Shown here piece after piece: positions 1 through 7,869 of a stretch of DNA of 55,773 nt. The first letter of the stretch is position 1, and every line of letters starts with the position of its first letter. Where the stretch lies: positions 1 to 55,773 of the forward strand of contig SUVV01000017.1 of NCBI GenBank assembly GCA_015061805.1. The letters run 5' to 3'. The position numbers and the translations under genes were made by a program. The notes under the pieces are model-generated. The model had not been told where the DNA came from and ran no database searches. It was given only the letters and a program-made list of their open reading frames with translations. This DNA comes from Lentisphaerota bacterium (GTDB lineage Bacteria > Verrucomicrobiota > Lentisphaeria > Victivallales > Victivallaceae).

Positions 1-2
1 GG

Positions 3-59
3 GCGGCTCCGTCTGCATCCGATATATATACTGTAACTCAAAATACAACCGCTGAATAA
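3..59 (+). CDS. 3' end of an upstream gene (partial, tentative)
   Basis: The frame starting at base 3 stays open to a TAA at 57-59, four bases before the ribosome binding site of the prepilin gene. The encoded tail (about 18 residues, ending NTTAE) is too short to identify. Another frame is also open until 53-55, so the assignment is tentative. Confidence 0.35.
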   Translation, partial: AAPSASDIYTVTQNTTAE

Positions 60-62
60 TTC

Positions 63-80
63 AAAGGAGTGTAATTTATG
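63..80 (+). promoter_or_regulatory. Ribosome binding site and ancestral ATG of the prepilin gene
   Basis: AAAGGAG at 64-70 lies at a good distance from ATG 78-80. This identifies 78 as the original start, although the downstream duplication puts it out of frame with the prepilin body. Confidence 0.65.
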
Positions 81-89
81 GAAAAAAGT

Positions 90-157
90 CTCTGCCATGG
101 CAGAGTGAAGTTGTACAACTTCACTCTGCCATGGCAGAGTGAAGTTGTACAACTTCA
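90..157 (+). repeat. Tandem 34-bp unit made of two perfect palindromes
   Basis: Two identical 34-bp units, 90-123 and 124-157, are followed by CTCT, the start of a third. Each unit joins two perfect palindromes. A is CTCTGCCATGGCAGAG (16 bp, 90-105 and 124-139). B is TGAAGTTGTACAACTTCA (18 bp, 106-123 and 140-157). Because 34 is not a multiple of three, the copy number decides whether ATG 78 is in frame with the prepilin. Confidence 0.95.
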
Positions 158-810
158 CTCTTATCGAACTTCTTGTAGTCATCGCCATTATCGCCATTCT
201 TGCGGCGATACTGCTGCCGGCTCTGCAGAGCGCCCGTGAACGCGCCAGAGGAATCGGGTGTCTCAATAATCTCAAGCAGATCAGCGGAGTTTTCAACACT
301 TACAGTGATTCATTCGATGATATCGTGCCGCCTTATGAGTTTTTCCGTCCGCCCGGCACCGGCAGCGGCAGTACGATCCACTGGCTTGCTACTGACAGTT
401 GGTTCGTCCGTCAGATCAATGCCGGAGCTACGACTGCCAATTATCCGCAGGCATTTACCTGTCCGTCTGCAATAAAGTCCAATTTGAGCTGGAAACATTT
501 TGCTATGCCGTGGGGCGCAAGTTTTTCTGCGTACTATGACAACAAGCCGGATACTGCCGGTTGGTGCAAAAAACGTGGCATGTTCAAGAATATTTCCAAG
601 GTGGTACAGGCGATCGATTCCAACGGACAGACCAGTTATGATTCACAGAATACGGCGTACTTTATTCGGGGCGGAACCAGTTTGCGTCTGTCCTGGAGGC
701 ACAAAAAAATGATCAATGCCATTGCCATGGATGGACATGCGGTTACAGTCAGTGAATTGATCAAAACCGGGGGACGTTATGTCGTTTCCCAGCAGCGCCA
801 TTTGCCGTGA
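139..810 (+). CDS. Prepilin-like protein (N-methylation domain, H-X9-DG C-terminus), 5' end frame-disrupted
   Basis: The product carries a type IV prepilin/pseudopilin N-terminus: a short leader, then [20 protein letters not shown] with the conserved Glu five residues after the processed Phe, then a globular domain. Near the C-terminus, His followed by nine residues and DG ([14 protein letters not shown]) matches the H-X9-DG signature of the large pseudopilin families of Lentisphaerae and Planctomycetes. The natural start appears to be ATG at 78, preceded by AAAGGAG (64-70). That start is now out of frame because a 34-bp unit is duplicated (90-123 and 124-157). With one copy, the frame would run unbroken from 78 through [11 protein letters not shown] into the prepilin motif. 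As written, only GTG 139 lies in frame, without a clear ribosome site. The gene may therefore be off, weakly translated or phase-variable. Function beyond an envelope or secretion pseudopilin is unknown. Confidence 0.8.
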
Positions 811-849
811 CCGGTTTCGGCAGTGTAATAATTTCAGGAAAGTCGTATT

Positions 850-3800
850 ATGAAAAGAGCAGGAGTGTTGTCTTTTTTTCTGGCGGCAAGTTCACTTTTT
901 GCCGCTGCAGAAATTCCCTTTGAACGGCAGTTCTACCAGAGTGAAATGATCACCGGTTCCCGTCCCCGGCAGACGCCGCATACCTTGATCTACGGACGGA
1001 TCCAGCCTTATAACCTTTATGGAAATTATCTGGACAAATGGATCGACCGTCCGCTCTATCACAATGCCGCGTGGCGTACTGAAGTTGATGGTGTGGTCAA
1101 GGCATTTCATCAGGATATGCGCGCCGCCATGGAGTATGAGATCGAAGGTTTCACTATGCTGGGTAATGCCTACGGGACCCGTTACCGGGATGCGTTGAGA
1201 CTCATCGGTAAAAATCCTCCGGTGCCCGGATTCAAATTTATGCCGGGGATGGGATGGCGGCCGACTCCCGGCGAACGGGATTTCAACAACTTCAAATCGG
1301 CTTTTGAAAGCAAACTTACTCCGCGCATCAACGGGAAAGTTCCCTTTTTCAGTTACGGCAACGCGACATATCAGGCGGTGAAAAGTTACCGTGAATTCAT
1401 GAAAAAAAATAATTGGCAGGATTCATTGCTTTTCGGCGGTATCTGGCTGGATGTCTACAACAAATACCGCAACGGCATCCTCCCGGCGGAACACCTCGCT
1501 AATGCCCGCAAAGCCCTTGAAGCCCGTTTGGGATATCTCGATGGTGTTATACTTACCAACAGCCATATGTACCGCAATCCTGCCAAAGATTACTTCCTGT
1601 CGGTGAAATTCTACCCTGACCTGGATAAGAAATATCTGGCGCCGATGTTCGAAAAAGTTTTCTCTGATCCGAAGTTTGCCGGCAAATTGCTCGGATTCAA
1701 TGTCCGGCATTGTTATGTCGGGCACATGAGCGGTGTCGTCGAAGCCGAGCAGGGAACTCTTCAGCTCCGCGAAGCTATCGATACCGCCATGCTCTACAAT
1801 CCCGATATTATTTCGCTGGTGGAGTGGAATGAAGCCAATGAAAATACCTCATTCCAGCCCACTGTTCTGAACGGTAAAGTGCTGATGCGGCTCGTCCGTT
1901 ACTATTCCCGCTTTTTCAAGGGACAGAAAGCCGCTCCCCTTGCCGGAGATGATACCTCTATTCCGCCGCTTGCCGTTTCGGTCAGGCGGACGGTGAAACT
2001 CGGTGAGATGTACCGTCTCGAATTGCTCAATATCCCCGATGTGGAACAAAGTGAAAAATATTCGGTCAAGGCGAAACTGGTCAATGAAAATAATCAGGTG
2101 ATTCTGGAACTTCCTCCGGAAACTTTTGACCGGAGCAAACTTGCCAGTGTAACCTTTAAGGTTCCAAGCGAAAAACTGGCAAATTATAAGACCGTCGCCC
2201 CGGTCCTTGAGATCGTTTATCAGGGTAAGAGTTCGAAATGGGAAACTTTGCGTTTTACCCGGTTGGAGAATTCTGCCGGATGGGATTACAAAGAGGTTCG
2301 TACCGCTTTGCGGGACATTCCGGAATCTCATGCAGAAGTTGCATACAATGACGAAAAGATCTCCGCTTCGTTTGACGGCGGCAAAGAGATGCTGCAATCC
2401 TTTGAATTGCTTCACGATGACCGTGAACTCTTTGCGGTTGACAATATGCCCTTGATCGATCCGGTCAAATATGATACCATCCTGGTCAAGTTCGGCGCCC
2501 GCAAACAGGGTACCCATCCGGTGAAAATCACCGCAAAAAATGTTGACAGCTTGAAATTTCAGCCGTGGGGCGCACCATACAGCGGTTTCGGAAAACTTGC
2601 TCCGCAGGGTAATACGCTTGCCGGAGAGCTGCTTTTATGGCATGATGGTGCGTCTTTGCTTCTGGGAATTCCCAAAAATGCTGCCGCTGCGGAAATCGAT
2701 ATTGAAGTTTCCGGTAAAAAGGTGAGTGTCCCGGTTGCCGCTATTCGCAAAAACGGTAATTACGGTGCGGAAATGGGTATGCTCTGCCACGTTTATCTGG
2801 AAAAACGCGACTATCTCGCTGATCATCCGAAAGCACTGAATAGTACCAAAGCCGAATTTTCTTTCCCGGTGAAAGCTCTTTCCGGAGTTTTCCACGTCCG
2901 GGCTGTTACGGCAAGCGGAAAAGTTTTCCGCTCCGCTCCCATTGTCCGCAGAGCGGCAGGCGAAGCGGTTTCGCACCCGGTTTATTCGGTCAATGATGGA
3001 AAAGTCTGCAATGTTTCGGTTCCCGGCAATGAGATCAAGCATCTCAAATATACTTTCAACCGCGAACTTGGAACCGTTTTCAAATGTAATTATCCGGAGT
3101 TTGACGGTCGTCTGGGGGCCGGTTTCCGGTACGTTTATCCCATGTGGCACGGCCGGTTGCCCAAAGATGCGGTAACGTGCGCTCCGACGATCGCTGACGG
3201 CGTACTGAAGTTTGACGGCAAAGGGAATTATATCGTATTCCCGGTGGATGCTCTTCCAGCCGGAGCGTTTACGGTCAAATTCTCCTGCAAGCCGCAGAGC
3301 AAGGGCAATATGGTGCTTTTCCGCCACGCCAAATACATCCCGACCTCGATTGAAAGCTGGATCGAAAACGGTAAACTTAAACTCGGTTACACCTCCATGG
3401 GACTCAATTACCGCAATTTCAGCCATGAGTTTGAAACCGGTCTTGAGGTGAAACCCGGGGAGTGGAACGATATCGAAATCAGTTACAATTATCAGTATTT
3501 GAAAGCATACGTCAACGGCAAAGCCGCAATTTTCCCCTTCAGCAAACGTCCCGGGAACTATGCGACCGCCTGTTTCGGCGGCTTCAACCAGTTGGATAAA
3601 AACTGTATCGGCAGAGATTTGAAATTCTTCCACGGCGAATTGCGTTCTCTGGAGATCATCCACACCGCACTCCCCGGTCTTACCGCCAAAGAAAAGGCGG
3701 TTTTGGAAGCCAAACGTGATGCTGATTCCCGCAGAATCAATGTCAATGGCAAATTCATCGGCGGTCAACTGCCCCGGCAGTGGTATGTCAACAAGGGAAT

Positions 3801-4167
3801 GAAACCGGTCGGTAAAACTTCTGCGGCAAAAAGCACGGTCGGCAATGCGGTGAAACTTCTTCCGCAACCGGGCGCGGCAATGCAGATATATTGTGCGCCT
3901 TTCGCTGTGAAGCCGGGGGAGGTCATCAAAGTTCGGCTGCATGTCAAAGGTAAAACCGGTGCGGTCGGTATCAATTTCTACGATGCCAAAAGCCGTTACA
4001 TCCGGCTGGGCGCGTCTGAAAAATTTGCCGATAGCGATGATTATAAAGAATACACTTTTACGGTTCCGGTATCAGGCAAAGGCGGAATTCCGGCTCTGGG
4101 CAGAATAACTTTGATGGTGACGGGCGGAAATCCGGCTGAGTTTTACGATCTTACAGTTTCCCGTTAA
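850..4167 (+). CDS. Secreted GH71/GH99-like glycosidase with C-terminal LamG-type domain
   Basis: A 1105-residue protein with a clear signal peptide (MKRAGVLSFFLAASSLFAAA), so exported. Residues about 40-350 resemble the TIM-barrel catalytic region of alpha-glucanase/mannanase-like families GH71 and GH99; the stretch SLVEWNEANENTSF near residues 323-336 resembles their late-barrel acidic motif. The middle has beta-sandwich character. Residues about 785-945 read as a concanavalin A-like (LamG) fold, with FDGKGNYIVFP, WNDIEISY, KAYVNGK and GELRSLEI segments. A final jelly-roll-like segment resembles a carbohydrate-binding module. It starts 39 bases after the prepilin gene, so the two may be co-transcribed. 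The family assignment rests on remembered motifs; the catalytic residues and substrate are not established. Confidence 0.6.
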   Translation: MKRAGVLSFFLAASSLFAAAEIPFERQFYQSEMITGSRPRQTPHTLIYGRIQPYNLYGNYLDKWIDRPLYHNAAWRTEVDGVVKAFHQDMRAAMEYEIEGFTMLGNAYGTRYRDALRLIGKNPPVPGFKFMPGMGWRPTPGERDFNNFKSAFESKLTPRINGKVPFFSYGNATYQAVKSYREFMKKNNWQDSLLFGGIWLDVYNKYRNGILPAEHLANARKALEARLGYLDGVILTNSHMYRNPAKDYFLSVKFYPDLDKKYLAPMFEKVFSDPKFAGKLLGFNVRHCYVGHMSGVVEAEQGTLQLREAIDTAMLYNPDIISLVEWNEANENTSFQPTVLNGKVLMRLVRYYSRFFKGQKAAPLAGDDTSIPPLAVSVRRTVKLGEMYRLELLNIPDVEQSEKYSVKAKLVNENNQVILELPPETFDRSKLASVTFKVPSEKLANYKTVAPVLEIVYQGKSSKWETLRFTRLENSAGWDYKEVRTALRDIPESHAEVAYNDEKISASFDGGKEMLQSFELLHDDRELFAVDNMPLIDPVKYDTILVKFGARKQGTHPVKITAKNVDSLKFQPWGAPYSGFGKLAPQGNTLAGELLLWHDGASLLLGIPKNAAAAEIDIEVSGKKVSVPVAAIRKNGNYGAEMGMLCHVYLEKRDYLADHPKALNSTKAEFSFPVKALSGVFHVRAVTASGKVFRSAPIVRRAAGEAVSHPVYSVNDGKVCNVSVPGNEIKHLKYTFNRELGTVFKCNYPEFDGRLGAGFRYVYPMWHGRLPKDAVTCAPTIADGVLKFDGKGNYIVFPVDALPAGAFTVKFSCKPQSKGNMVLFRHAKYIPTSIESWIENGKLKLGYTSMGLNYRNFSHEFETGLEVKPGEWNDIEISYNYQYLKAYVNGKAAIFPFSKRPGNYATACFGGFNQLDKNCIGRDLKFFHGELRSLEIIHTALPGLTAKEKAVLEAKRDADSRRINVNGKFIGGQLPRQWYVNKGMKPVGKTSAAKSTVGNAVKLLPQPGAAMQIYCAPFAVKPGEVIKVRLHVKGKTGAVGINFYDAKSRYIRLGASEKFADSDDYKEYTFTVPVSGKGGIPALGRITLMVTGGNPAEFYDLTVSR

Positions 4168-4170
4168 AGA

Positions 4171-7100
4171 TCAGAGCAGCATATTCTGCCACGCATCTTC
4201 CAGTTTGGCAACGGGGGATTTGATCTTGCACCGGACTTCGGGAGCAAAGATGGCAATGCGGCACTCTTCCAACAATTGCCAGAATTCATACAAGCCGTCG
4301 GAGAAAGTGATATCTCCGACGGTTTCCCATGCCGCGTAGAATTTATCCAGATAATCTTCCAGCACTTCCCCTTTTTGCATATCCCGTGCCGGAGCGTTGA
4401 TCAGACGTTCGGCGCGCAGTTTCAGCGCCCGCAGATAGCGCGGATAGTCGGTAACTACCGCACGGCGGCGGAGAAATCCCGGAGAAAAGAGCAAATCAAG
4501 GTGTTCGGTGATGGGCGCTGCATTCTCTTTGGCGCGGCGGGCAAGCGCCCGGATGTTGGAATACTCCGTACAATACTGCTCCAGAGATGCTGTTATCTGG
4601 TCGATCTCATCAGCCCAGTTCATCTGCATGGTTTCACATATCTCATCAAATTTCTGCCGGGAACGGACTTCCCATAAATCGCAGTCCGATGCATTTTCCA
4701 GCGCGGCGTAAAGCAATTGATCTTCAAAATCGGACATGTTTGCCCCCAGAACCAGAGACATTTTGACCTCGTTGGAGAGTTTCAGACTCCGCTTGAGGAA
4801 TTTGAACTGCTGTTCGTGAGAGATGATAAACAGTTTCAACACTCCGGCTTTGTGGCGGCGGCGCGCTTCGCTGATCTTGAGGAAAAGTTGACGGGAAACC
4901 TTTCCTTTTTCCACCGCCAGGGCAGGGTAACTCATCCTGCCGGAACCCGGCGGGATCTCGACCGATTCCGGCATTGCTCCGGCATCATCGGGCCAGTCGG
5001 TGAGTTCTGAATCGATATGGCGCGCGGCCCCGGGAAGCGCCGCCGAGAGTTTGGAATTGCGTACCATTCTGCCGGGGAGTTCACGCAGACGAACTTTAAG
5101 TTGTCCTTTTTCATTGAGGACGCCGAGTTTGAGTTTGAGGTATTCCGGAATGCGGCAGGCTTCCAACGCGCGCGGCGGTATGGAGAGTTCCGAATCGTAA
5201 AGCAGAAATTCCGCCATCGCTTCCGCCGGTGGCAACTGCCGGGCAGATATATCATTTTTCAGATAATCGGCAAAACGTTGAGCCGTCTGGGAGATGGTAC
5301 CGTCAAATTTCCGGCGCAGTTCCTTGGGCAGGGCGCGGAGCATCGCTTCCCCGAAATCGGCATAGTAGCCCGGTATCGGATAGTCCAGCACCCGATCCGG
5401 CAGAATATTGAGCATCGATTCTTTTACCAGAAGAGTGACCCCGTCATATTCAGACCCCGGTTCAAAGAGGTAAGAAAGAGAAAACTTCACCTTGTTGAAT
5501 TCCAGATGGCCGGGAAAATCTGCCGGAGTGAATTTTATGAATTGCTCCAGCATCAGATCATCGGTGTCGATGTCGAATGAATCCGGATGGCGGAGCATGT
5601 ATTGTTTCAACGATTTTACCGAGTTTACCTCCGGCGGGATGTGGGCGATGAAAAAGTCGGCGGCGGCATTTTCATCGTAGAGTTGACCGGGACGGCGCAT
5701 CCGCAATTCCAGAGTGAGCAGTTCATCCCGGCGGGAGGTGTATTTGGCAAGCGGAGTTCCCGGCAGAATGACCATTCCGGCGAGGATGCCTTCGCGGATG
5801 AAGATTTCCCGCGCCGCTTCCGGATTGCATCTGCCGAAATCGACCTGCCGCCCGGAATGGACGGTCAATCCGCCGAGTACAACCTTTTCTCTGGCGCGGA
5901 CATAGCCGCTGCGGGAATCGAAGTGTTCCGAATCATAGACCCGGCTGCAGAGGTGGCCGGCACAGCGTTCGACCGCATCGGGATCGATCGCGGCGGCAGT
6001 CCGTCCGAAGACCCGGCTGGTTTCCACCAGATGAAAACAGAGCAGCCACTCCGGGAGTTTCTTTTTTTTGCCCGCCAAACCGCTGCCGGGGAAAATGTGG
6101 AATTTTTTGCCGTCCGTTCCCCGGTAGATGCGTTCAACCTTGTCCAGAGTCGCAATATTGCGGGGGATCCCGGTCAACAGTGCATCGTGGATGTGATCGT
6201 ATGGAGCGGTGTCAACTGCGGTGAAATCCTGCCGGAAGCGGATGGCATCGGCAAGTTCCGTTACGAGATTGCGCCATTCGCGCACCCGCTTGAAATTGAG
6301 AAAATTCTGCTGACAGAATTTGCGGAGCAGACTGTTGGATGTGCAATCCGAAAGGGCGTTCCAGAGATTGAGCATGGCAATAAAATCGCTGTTTTCATCT
6401 TTCCAGCGGCGATGGGCTTCATCGGCGGCTTGAGTTTTTTCCGCAGGGCGTTCCCGGACATCTCCGACCGTCAATCCGGCAGTGAGAACCAGCAGTTGCG
6501 GAACCACTTTCAACTGACTTGACGAGAGCAGCATTTTGCCGAGAGCCGGGTCGAGCGGCAAGCGGGCGAGCATTCTGCCGTTCGGGGTGAGATGAAAATC
6601 TTTATCGAAAGCCTTGAGGTCGCACAAGGTGCGGATGCCTTCGCGGATGCTGTTGTTTTTCGGCGGCTCAATAAACGGGAATCGGTAAATATCCGGGAGT
6701 TTCAACGCCGCCATTTGAAGAATGACTCCGGCAAGTGAACTGCGCTTGATCTCCGGATCGGTAAAAGGCATCATCCGGTTGTAGTTCTCTTCGGAGTAAA
6801 GGTGCACACAGATGCCGTCCGCGGTTCGTCCGCACCGTCCCCGGCGCTGGCGTACGGAGGCTTGGGAAATCATTTCGATCTGCAGTTCCTGGATCCTGGT
6901 TCGCGGATTGTAGCGGCTGATCCTCGCCAGCCCGGAGTCGATACAGAATTTGACATCCGGAATCGTCAGACTGGTTTCCGCAACGTTGGTACTGAGGATT
7001 ATCCGCCGTTTGGCACTCGGCTGAAAGACCTTTTGCTGATCGGCATTGCTGAGCCGGGCATAGAGCGGCAGGACTTCGGTATTGCGGTAGTTGCGTCCGT

Positions 7101-7869
7101 TGAGCATATCGGTACATTCCCGGATTTCTCTTTCGCCGGGGAGAAAGACCAGAATATTGCCCCGGAAATCAAATCCGGAGAGCAGTTCAACTGCGCGGGC
7201 GACATGTTCCGGCAGTTCCTCATCGAGTTCCGGCATCAGGAAAATATCTTCCACCGGGAAAGTCCGCCCTTCGACAGTGATCACCGGCGCACCCGGGAAA
7301 AACTCCTGAAACTTCTCCAGATCCAAGGTCGCTGAAGAAATGGCGATTTTCAAATCTTTGCGGCGCCGGAGCAGGTTTTTGAGCAGTCCGAGCAGGAAAT
7401 CGATGTTGAGAGAACGTTCATGGGCTTCATCGATGATGATGGTGTCGTATTGGCGGAGCAGGGGATCATCTTTGAATTCCGCCAGCAGAATGCCGTCGGT
7501 CATAAATTTGAGAACGGTCTCTTTGGAGGTGCGGTCTTCAAAACGCACCTGACTGCCGACTCCGGAGCCGTATTCGGTTTTTAATTCCAGAGCGAGCCGC
7601 CGCGCCATTGCCGTTGCCGCGATCCGCCGGGGCTGGGTGCAGCCGATCCTGCCGGAGATGCCGCGTCCGAGTTCGAGAGCGACTTTGGGAAGCTGGGTGG
7701 TTTTTCCGGAACCGGTGGCGCCGCCGAGAATTATCAACTGGTGTTTCTGCCACAACTCTTTTATGGCGGCAATGTGGGAACTGATCGGAAGAAAATCCGG
7801 GTAACTTACGACAAACTTTTCAACAATGTTTTTCCGGGCATCAAAAAACGCGGATTTGGGGTCGTTCAT
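4171..7869 (-). CDS. hrpA: ATP-dependent RNA helicase HrpA (DEAH box)
   Basis: A 1232-residue DEAH-box helicase, close to the ~1300 residues of enterobacterial HrpA. Motif I is GATGSGKTTQLP (about 50-61), motif II DEAH (147-150), motif III SSAT (178-181), and motif VI is the RQRRGRCGR stretch. The helicase-associated (HA2) and OB-fold regions follow, then the long HrpA-specific C-terminal domain. HrpA acts on RNA and ribosomes in the cytoplasm and is linked to rescue of stalled or collided ribosomes. The start is 30 bases downstream of the encoded CCA of tRNA-Gly on the same strand with no clear promoter between, so both probably share the tRNA promoter. The gene converges on the upstream glycosidase with only 3 bases between stop codons. 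Confidence 0.95.
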   Translation of the reverse strand: MNDPKSAFFDARKNIVEKFVVSYPDFLPISSHIAAIKELWQKHQLIILGGATGSGKTTQLPKVALELGRGISGRIGCTQPRRIAATAMARRLALELKTEYGSGVGSQVRFEDRTSKETVLKFMTDGILLAEFKDDPLLRQYDTIIIDEAHERSLNIDFLLGLLKNLLRRRKDLKIAISSATLDLEKFQEFFPGAPVITVEGRTFPVEDIFLMPELDEELPEHVARAVELLSGFDFRGNILVFLPGEREIRECTDMLNGRNYRNTEVLPLYARLSNADQQKVFQPSAKRRIILSTNVAETSLTIPDVKFCIDSGLARISRYNPRTRIQELQIEMISQASVRQRRGRCGRTADGICVHLYSEENYNRMMPFTDPEIKRSSLAGVILQMAALKLPDIYRFPFIEPPKNNSIREGIRTLCDLKAFDKDFHLTPNGRMLARLPLDPALGKMLLSSSQLKVVPQLLVLTAGLTVGDVRERPAEKTQAADEAHRRWKDENSDFIAMLNLWNALSDCTSNSLLRKFCQQNFLNFKRVREWRNLVTELADAIRFRQDFTAVDTAPYDHIHDALLTGIPRNIATLDKVERIYRGTDGKKFHIFPGSGLAGKKKKLPEWLLCFHLVETSRVFGRTAAAIDPDAVERCAGHLCSRVYDSEHFDSRSGYVRAREKVVLGGLTVHSGRQVDFGRCNPEAAREIFIREGILAGMVILPGTPLAKYTSRRDELLTLELRMRRPGQLYDENAAADFFIAHIPPEVNSVKSLKQYMLRHPDSFDIDTDDLMLEQFIKFTPADFPGHLEFNKVKFSLSYLFEPGSEYDGVTLLVKESMLNILPDRVLDYPIPGYYADFGEAMLRALPKELRRKFDGTISQTAQRFADYLKNDISARQLPPAEAMAEFLLYDSELSIPPRALEACRIPEYLKLKLGVLNEKGQLKVRLRELPGRMVRNSKLSAALPGAARHIDSELTDWPDDAGAMPESVEIPPGSGRMSYPALAVEKGKVSRQLFLKISEARRRHKAGVLKLFIISHEQQFKFLKRSLKLSNEVKMSLVLGANMSDFEDQLLYAALENASDCDLWEVRSRQKFDEICETMQMNWADEIDQITASLEQYCTEYSNIRALARRAKENAAPITEHLDLLFSPGFLRRRAVVTDYPRYLRALKLRAERLINAPARDMQKGEVLEDYLDKFYAAWETVGDITFSDGLYEFWQLLEECRIAIFAPEVRCKIKSPVAKLEDAWQNMLL

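Follow-up and report, generated by a model that had tools for sequence, protein, structure and literature searches.

The DNA analysed here (the window, 55,773 nt; C17:1-55773) is the very start of contig C17 of genome G000 (34 contigs, 2.29 Mb, 91% complete). Its first gene raises the question of why a prepilin-like body lies out of frame with the start codon placed before it, and whether the tandem duplication between the two could act as a switch. A Shine-Dalgarno-like AAAGGAG (63..69, + strand) is followed by the leader ATG (78..80, +), whose frame leaves that of the prepilin motif (the FTL frame) and reaches a stop at 237-239. The body (154..810, +) begins with FTLIELLV (154-177), and the last upstream stop in its frame is a TGA (106..108, +) at -48 from the FTL codon. 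Between the ATG and the motif, two identical 34-nt units were found (90..123 and 124..157, both +; 34/34 positions alike). Each is composed of a 16-bp palindrome, CTCTGCCATGGCAGAG, and an 18-bp palindrome, TGAAGTTGTACAACTTCA (90-105 and 106-123 in the first unit), and CTCT follows directly 3' of the second (158-161). The sequence-only reading had reported this duplicated double palindrome and the trailing CTCT, and both are present as described. Its frame arithmetic also holds: the ATG-to-FTL distance is 76 nt (1 mod 3, out of frame), and it becomes 42 nt (0 mod 3, in frame) when one unit is removed.

The second copy also creates a perfect palindrome of 60 nt (102..161, unstranded), which forms a 28-bp stem in the predicted RNA and is absent without that copy. 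Its 3' end is an element, X (TTCACTCT; 154..161, +), in which the opening codons of the prepilin motif double as the 3' arm of the second palindrome (P2). No known structured RNA family was matched when window positions 1-850 were searched against Rfam (0 matches).

Profile searches identified the body as prepilin-like, with matches to the N-terminal cleavage/methylation motif TIGR02532 (22.8 bits, cut-off 16.3) and to DUF1559 (30.6 bits, cut-off 23.3); Pfam N_methyl scored just under its cut-off (20.8 vs 21.2). The next gene (850..4167, +; 1105 aa) has a weak Laminin_G_3 / 3-keto-disaccharide hydrolase match, and beyond it lies a 1232-aa ORF (4171-7869, -) whose motifs suggest an HrpA-like DEAH RNA helicase. 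Among the genes that follow the examined prepilins of G000 and G005, most are without a Pfam match, two match Laminin_G_3 and one DUF4838.

When the window prepilin was compared with 78 genomes of the family, five matched at 1e-10, its own included. G005 holds the only clear ortholog (the other matching genomes reach 30-35%), and the counterpart of the 850-4167 gene is again the next gene there. This ortholog (G005:C50, 66-70% aa) is also two-copy, with a different unit sequence. A second comparison is found within G000 itself: the first 127 nt of the window (1..127, +) are 100% identical, over exactly that length, to the start of contig C28. There the same leader carries one copy, and its frame is open into a different prepilin body. 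The relative of the C28 gene in G005 is likewise one-copy (G005:C36, 56% aa, with 77% nt synteny downstream), and C50 and C36 are separate loci. An overlap of precisely this length looks like a junction in the assembly graph at k=127, and C17 and C28 may be one leader before two bodies or two loci with a common leader.

Palindromic leaders in the genus

Prepilin-motif sites number about 44 in G000 (2.3 Mb) and 69 in G005 (2.6 Mb). Across the genus, 122 of 243 usable sites, in 20 of the 30 genomes giving sites, have two palindromes (P1 and P2) just before the FTL codon; this sample was enriched for such leaders, and the ten without P1P2 gave 1-5 sites each. The first survey covered 241 unique sites in genus loci with palindrome arms of at least 7 nt; sites were left out when their leader contained N or when a locus end was within 60 nt (3 in this survey). 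The 238 usable sites were divided into 119 with P1 and P2, 8 with P1 only, 8 with P2 only and 103 with neither. Of the 119 P1P2 leaders, 101 have their two centres at precisely -22 and -5, counted from the FTL codon. Since a P1 and a P2 palindrome together occurred in 0/4760 shuffled leaders and at 1/601 gene-body positions, their frequency exceeds chance. In the near-complete sets, P1P2 was found at 13/44 sites (G000) and 27/69 (G005). The other genomes (130/243 sites) were picked by similarity to queries, mostly with VKLYS-type leaders, so the overall P1P2 fraction is inflated.

Detection of P1P2 leaders itself demands complementarity. Covariation was scored in 90 leaders chosen only on TRAAG at -14..-10, a choice that still conditions the outer arm of P2. 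In P1, 81.7% of cells were paired (60.1% when shuffled) and 218 cells were changed on both sides (74 when shuffled); for P2 the values were 95.3% (83.0%) and 152 (52.8). None of 500 shuffles reached these paired fractions and two-sided change counts, and structures slid along the same 90 leaders were 36-54% paired. The measure "pairs with a change on both sides", taken alone, was not above shuffles (303 and 105 of 500 reached it). The base-pair covariation indicates that the structure is kept while the sequence turns over.

One unit, in most cases 34 nt long, consists of both hairpins (P1 and P2), and its pattern is built on the motif itself. X has the form TTYACNC, in which the F-T codons serve as the 3' arm of P2, and it is mirrored upstream in 17-nt steps with palindromic cores between: X' (GNGTRAA, read as V-K) lies at -17 and X again, often partial, at -34. 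As X' is an arm in both P1 and P2, the extended stems are mutually exclusive, as in an attenuator. Outside the genus, the best 80 loci kept contained 101 sites; some palindrome was present at 10 of them, and a tandem unit at none; from this limited look at the best 80 outside loci, the P1P2 feature looks restricted to the genus.

Second units and the reading frame

An exact second unit is present at 22 of the 243 sites, in seven genomes. The spread is uneven, a point against a switch, with 14 of the 22 in G005, three in G011 and one each in G000, G003, G006, G008 and G026. A further two-copy array, missed by the motif filter, lies inside a stacked insert at L117 (G005) and fits the frame rule with one of four candidate ATGs, and an N gap at L146 interrupts what looks like another. 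The units are 31, 32, 34, 35 or 38 nt long, never a multiple of 3, which is weak as a count because most share the length of 34. Copies are identical over the unit and over 1-8 nt of extra repeat at its edge; the repeated runs measure 37-42 nt.

All 21 two-copy genes with a placed Shine-Dalgarno and ATG are out of frame, and by length all would be in frame with one unit less; no ATG was placed at the 22nd site (L272). The one-copy P1P2 genes are in frame and open in 82/82 cases with a placed Shine-Dalgarno and ATG (19 others have no placed ATG). For sites without P1P2 the count is 50/56 (64 without a placed ATG). The last stop in the FTL frame falls inside the array in 13/20 two-copy genes (10 at -48, the rest at -42, -45 and -54) and further upstream of it in 7/20. 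A palindrome centred on the second P1 has arms of 23-33 nt at 15 of the 20 two-copy sites with P1P2 and arms of 14-15 nt at the other five. Predicted leader RNA folds, calculated on stretches of unlike length, were -57.1 kcal/mol for the window against -21.6 for C28, and -50.8 for the two-copy against -22.5 for the one-copy form of a gene (gene A) described below.

In 12/20 two-copy genes the last stop is followed by an ATG, GTG or TTG in the FTL frame (an in-frame ATG at -54/-60 in six of them). Some two-copy genes may therefore be translated after all, which counts against a switch. A downstream start as a general rescue was rejected, as it is absent in 8/20 (L063, L106, L133, L150, L283, L290, L319 and L342). 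A single programmed +1 or -1 frameshift was rejected too, because unit length is 1 mod 3 in part of the genes but 2 mod 3 in the rest, and no one shift suits both. Arrays of three were not seen, unlike in classic slippage; three copies would form a repeat of about 75 nt, which short-read assembly may not resolve, and the limit of exactly two may thus be an assembly ceiling.

The copy number also differs between nearly identical genes. Gene A has one copy in G011 (L269) and two in G026 (L327); in their alignment 551 of 601 columns are identical, and the single unit accounts for 34 of the 35 gap columns. Gene B shows the opposite arrangement, with two copies in G011 (L354) and one, in frame, in G026 (L360); here identity is 96% over 852 nt, and an upstream segment of 71 nt (90%) shows an offset of precisely 34 nt. 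Both genes are thus 96-97% identical between two species and differ by one unit in opposite directions. Their flanks are about 80-83% identical over 3-8.7 kb, and in 100-nt windows identity is 94-100% across much of each gene but 65-90% in the surrounding DNA. A recent exchange of these genes between the two species may explain this contrast, which is a further point against a switch; the unit would then have been gained or lost after the exchange. Prepilin genes form islands of high identity when G011:C21 and C14 are compared with G026:C5 and C16 (L361-L364).

In two other ortholog pairs, C17/G005:C50 and L342/L354 (72%), both members carry two copies, and their units differ in sequence. Such pairs require either frequent turnover or a kept two-copy state; the state can then look kept, which counts against a switch. 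For L283, no orthologs were found outside G011 at 1e-40.

The one-unit differences in genes A and B, together with the 21/21 and 82/82 frame counts, indicate that copy-number variation in these leaders is very likely real. The idea of a copy-number switch, raised for the window by the sequence-only reading, thus gains support from the one-copy C28 leader, the 22 two-copy sites and the opposite differences between G011 and G026: searched for in this genome and its relatives, the unit is neither unique to the locus nor fixed at two copies, although the one clear ortholog of the window gene has two copies as well.

Explanations for the second unit

The architecture, its covariation, the exact second copies, the frame arithmetic and the species differences in two directions are observations. 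Judged from the assemblies alone, we give a probability of about 55% to the reading that the unit is a copy-number frame switch providing reversible on/off phase variation. With one unit, the ATG, the leader and the FTLIELL body would share one frame (ON). Exact gain of a second would shift the frame (OFF), bring a stop of the FTL frame into the array (as in 13 of 20 arrays) and form the long palindrome, with a predicted long hairpin at the 5' end of the mRNA. Units might be gained and lost by hairpin-promoted replication slippage or by template switching at the 1-8 nt repeats. The two-copy gene would then be silent, and switching would be reversible within a population and selected as phase variation.

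A wider form of the frame switch is offered tentatively, at somewhat below even odds. It would amount to genome-wide phase variation by a switch without a fixed sequence and perhaps without a dedicated recombinase, in which dozens of prepilin genes build double hairpins from their own FTL codons, unit gain and loss turn them off and on, and pilin-like proteins come under combinatorial control in one genus. If true, this would be a phase-variation device set by structure and not by sequence, one that escapes short-repeat scans and works on many paralogues at once. The many independent natural units in both states also provide material for studying hairpin-driven exact duplication and deletion in replication.

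The main rival, which we consider rather unlikely, is unprogrammed instability: template switching would make and keep the palindromes, and the second copies would be ordinary duplications, promoted by hairpins and tolerated, with no selected switch. Tolerance could rest on the dozens of prepilin genes per genome (44 in G000, 69 in G005), and the 1-8 nt repeats at the unit edges fit such events. The P1 centre is inverted between like leaders in two clear cases (CC/GG and GT/AC), the pair of prepilin sites at L249 in G010 and G011 L279 / G003 L343. A non-palindromic P1 centre that is reverse-complemented between like leaders is a signature of template switching. Six shifted axes gave 0 inverted pairs, and a third case, in P2, is ambiguous. 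In a study of coding palindromes elsewhere, template switching is proposed as well (PMC6649704). Against instability, the palindromes lie at fixed distances from one codon in many genomes, the bodies of two-copy genes remain open, and 14 two-copy genes in one genome are many for a harmful accident.

The sequence-only reading had also suggested a recombination site that swaps prepilin bodies behind a common leader, and support for that suggestion is indirect. C17 and C28 share at least 127 nt of leader and a further 33 nt after the array before different bodies (64/100 positions agree beyond that point). In G006, L319 (two copies) and L320 (one copy) are 0.90 identical upstream, 0.89 in the motif and 0.60 in the available body, the last being the level of unrelated pairs. 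Leader and upstream DNA shared before different bodies in both pairs indicate that leader/body exchange happens. Nothing marks the palindromes as the crossover site: the stretch shared by C17 and C28 continues beyond the array as far as the motif codons, which places the join outside the palindromes. The units of two-copy genes also differ from gene to gene, and a search for Y1_Tnp, the only recombinase sought, gave none linked to them. It is thus improbable that the arrays are sites at which a recombinase or homologous recombination exchanges leaders and bodies.

Very improbable, too, is translational bypassing, in which the ribosome would skip one unit and two-copy genes would be expressed. 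The units form hairpins, have lengths not tied to 3 and offer identical flanks as take-off and landing sites, and the two-copy state is found in both orthologs of some pairs. However, the second unit stands in tandem with its own copy, and of two genes with 96-97% identity one has it and the other lacks it, as local duplication predicts. Least probable of all is an assembly artefact of the palindromes: the starts of C17 and C28 are alike over exactly 127 nt, N gaps adjoin units in L146, L237 and L341, several two-copy loci (e.g. L115, L124 and L150) are near contig ends and, by our own reasoning, a one-copy graph permits a double walk at k near 21, but the repeated runs of 37-42 nt are shorter than a final k of 55, a number of arrays are found far from the ends of contigs of 58-153 kb, and one gene was resolved as one-copy in one species and two-copy in the other.

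Related systems and other leader elements

Several known systems resemble the frame switch in part. In slipped-strand contingency loci, gain or loss of tandem copies in an ORF shifts the frame, and pneumococcal capsule genes undergo phase variation by exact tandem duplication. As in both, a tandem copy in the ORF sets the frame of the prepilin genes (in 21/21 two-copy genes with Shine-Dalgarno and ATG) and close gene copies differ in number (genes A and B, G011 vs G026). In contrast to contingency loci, the prepilin unit is one double hairpin of 31-38 nt with a new sequence in nearly every gene, and it lies at a fixed place in dozens of paralogues with only one and two copies seen. By analogy, the pneumococcal tandem duplications would be the nearest in function.

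Rickettsia palindromic elements also place palindromes within bacterial ORFs. They belong to one mobile family whose members are related in sequence and sit in frame within unrelated genes, whereas the prepilin units vary in sequence from gene to gene, all precede the prepilin motif at the prepilin sites searched, and break the frame when added. The hairpin-forming inserts known as byps and the bypassed insert of T4 gene 60 share with the prepilin units hairpins, a length not tied to 3 and matching flanks; the prepilin unit differs in being an exact local copy that one of two near-identical genes can have and the other lack. REP/BIME elements, which are associated with RAYT transposases, likewise place many short palindromes in one genome, whereas the prepilin units lie inside one gene family. 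RAYT/REP as the engine was rejected: PF01797 (Y1_Tnp) matched in 11/34 genomes, the G000 match has stops, and none was found in G005, G006, G008, G011 or G026, that is, in 5/7 two-copy genomes (some incomplete).

Nearest in form are coding palindromes of Nematomorpha mitochondria (PMC6649704). The study describes perfect inverted repeats in translated genes, perhaps arising by template switching, notes overlapping repeats whose hairpins compete, and mentions bypassed palindromic elements in a yeast (PMC6649704). The Nematomorpha palindromes are spread over many genes and are given no known role there (PMC6649704), whereas the prepilin palindromes are tied to one codon position, to copy number and to frame. 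No description of a palindrome-unit prepilin switch was found in a literature search, largely without subscription papers, on prepilin palindromes, Lentisphaerae pseudopilins, Victivallales phase variation, DUF1559 and phase variation by palindromes or tandem duplication.

Two other kinds of element were observed in prepilin leaders. Long in-frame inserts lie between two copies of FTLIELLV in G000 (L015, L020, L028, L032, L034, L038, L040, L042, L046, L048 and L051) and in G005 (L107 and L117), and are stacked at L042, L107 and L117. The 5' FTLIELLV copy varies in its codons from gene to gene and, in one element type, the 3' copy is nearly constant (beginning TTCACTTTAATAGAA). These inserts resemble a family of mobile elements directed at the prepilin motif. 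A second leader type consists of several small hairpins, each followed by GCTTCA, and ends at FTLIELL. It was seen at L026 (G000), at L101, L103, L108, L113 and L117 (G005), and at L199 and L208, two named Lentisphaeria MAGs from yak and sheep gut with long leader arrays like that of L026, a likeness that makes Lentisphaeria the probable affiliation of G000. The GCTTCA resembles the start of the prepilin-motif codons.
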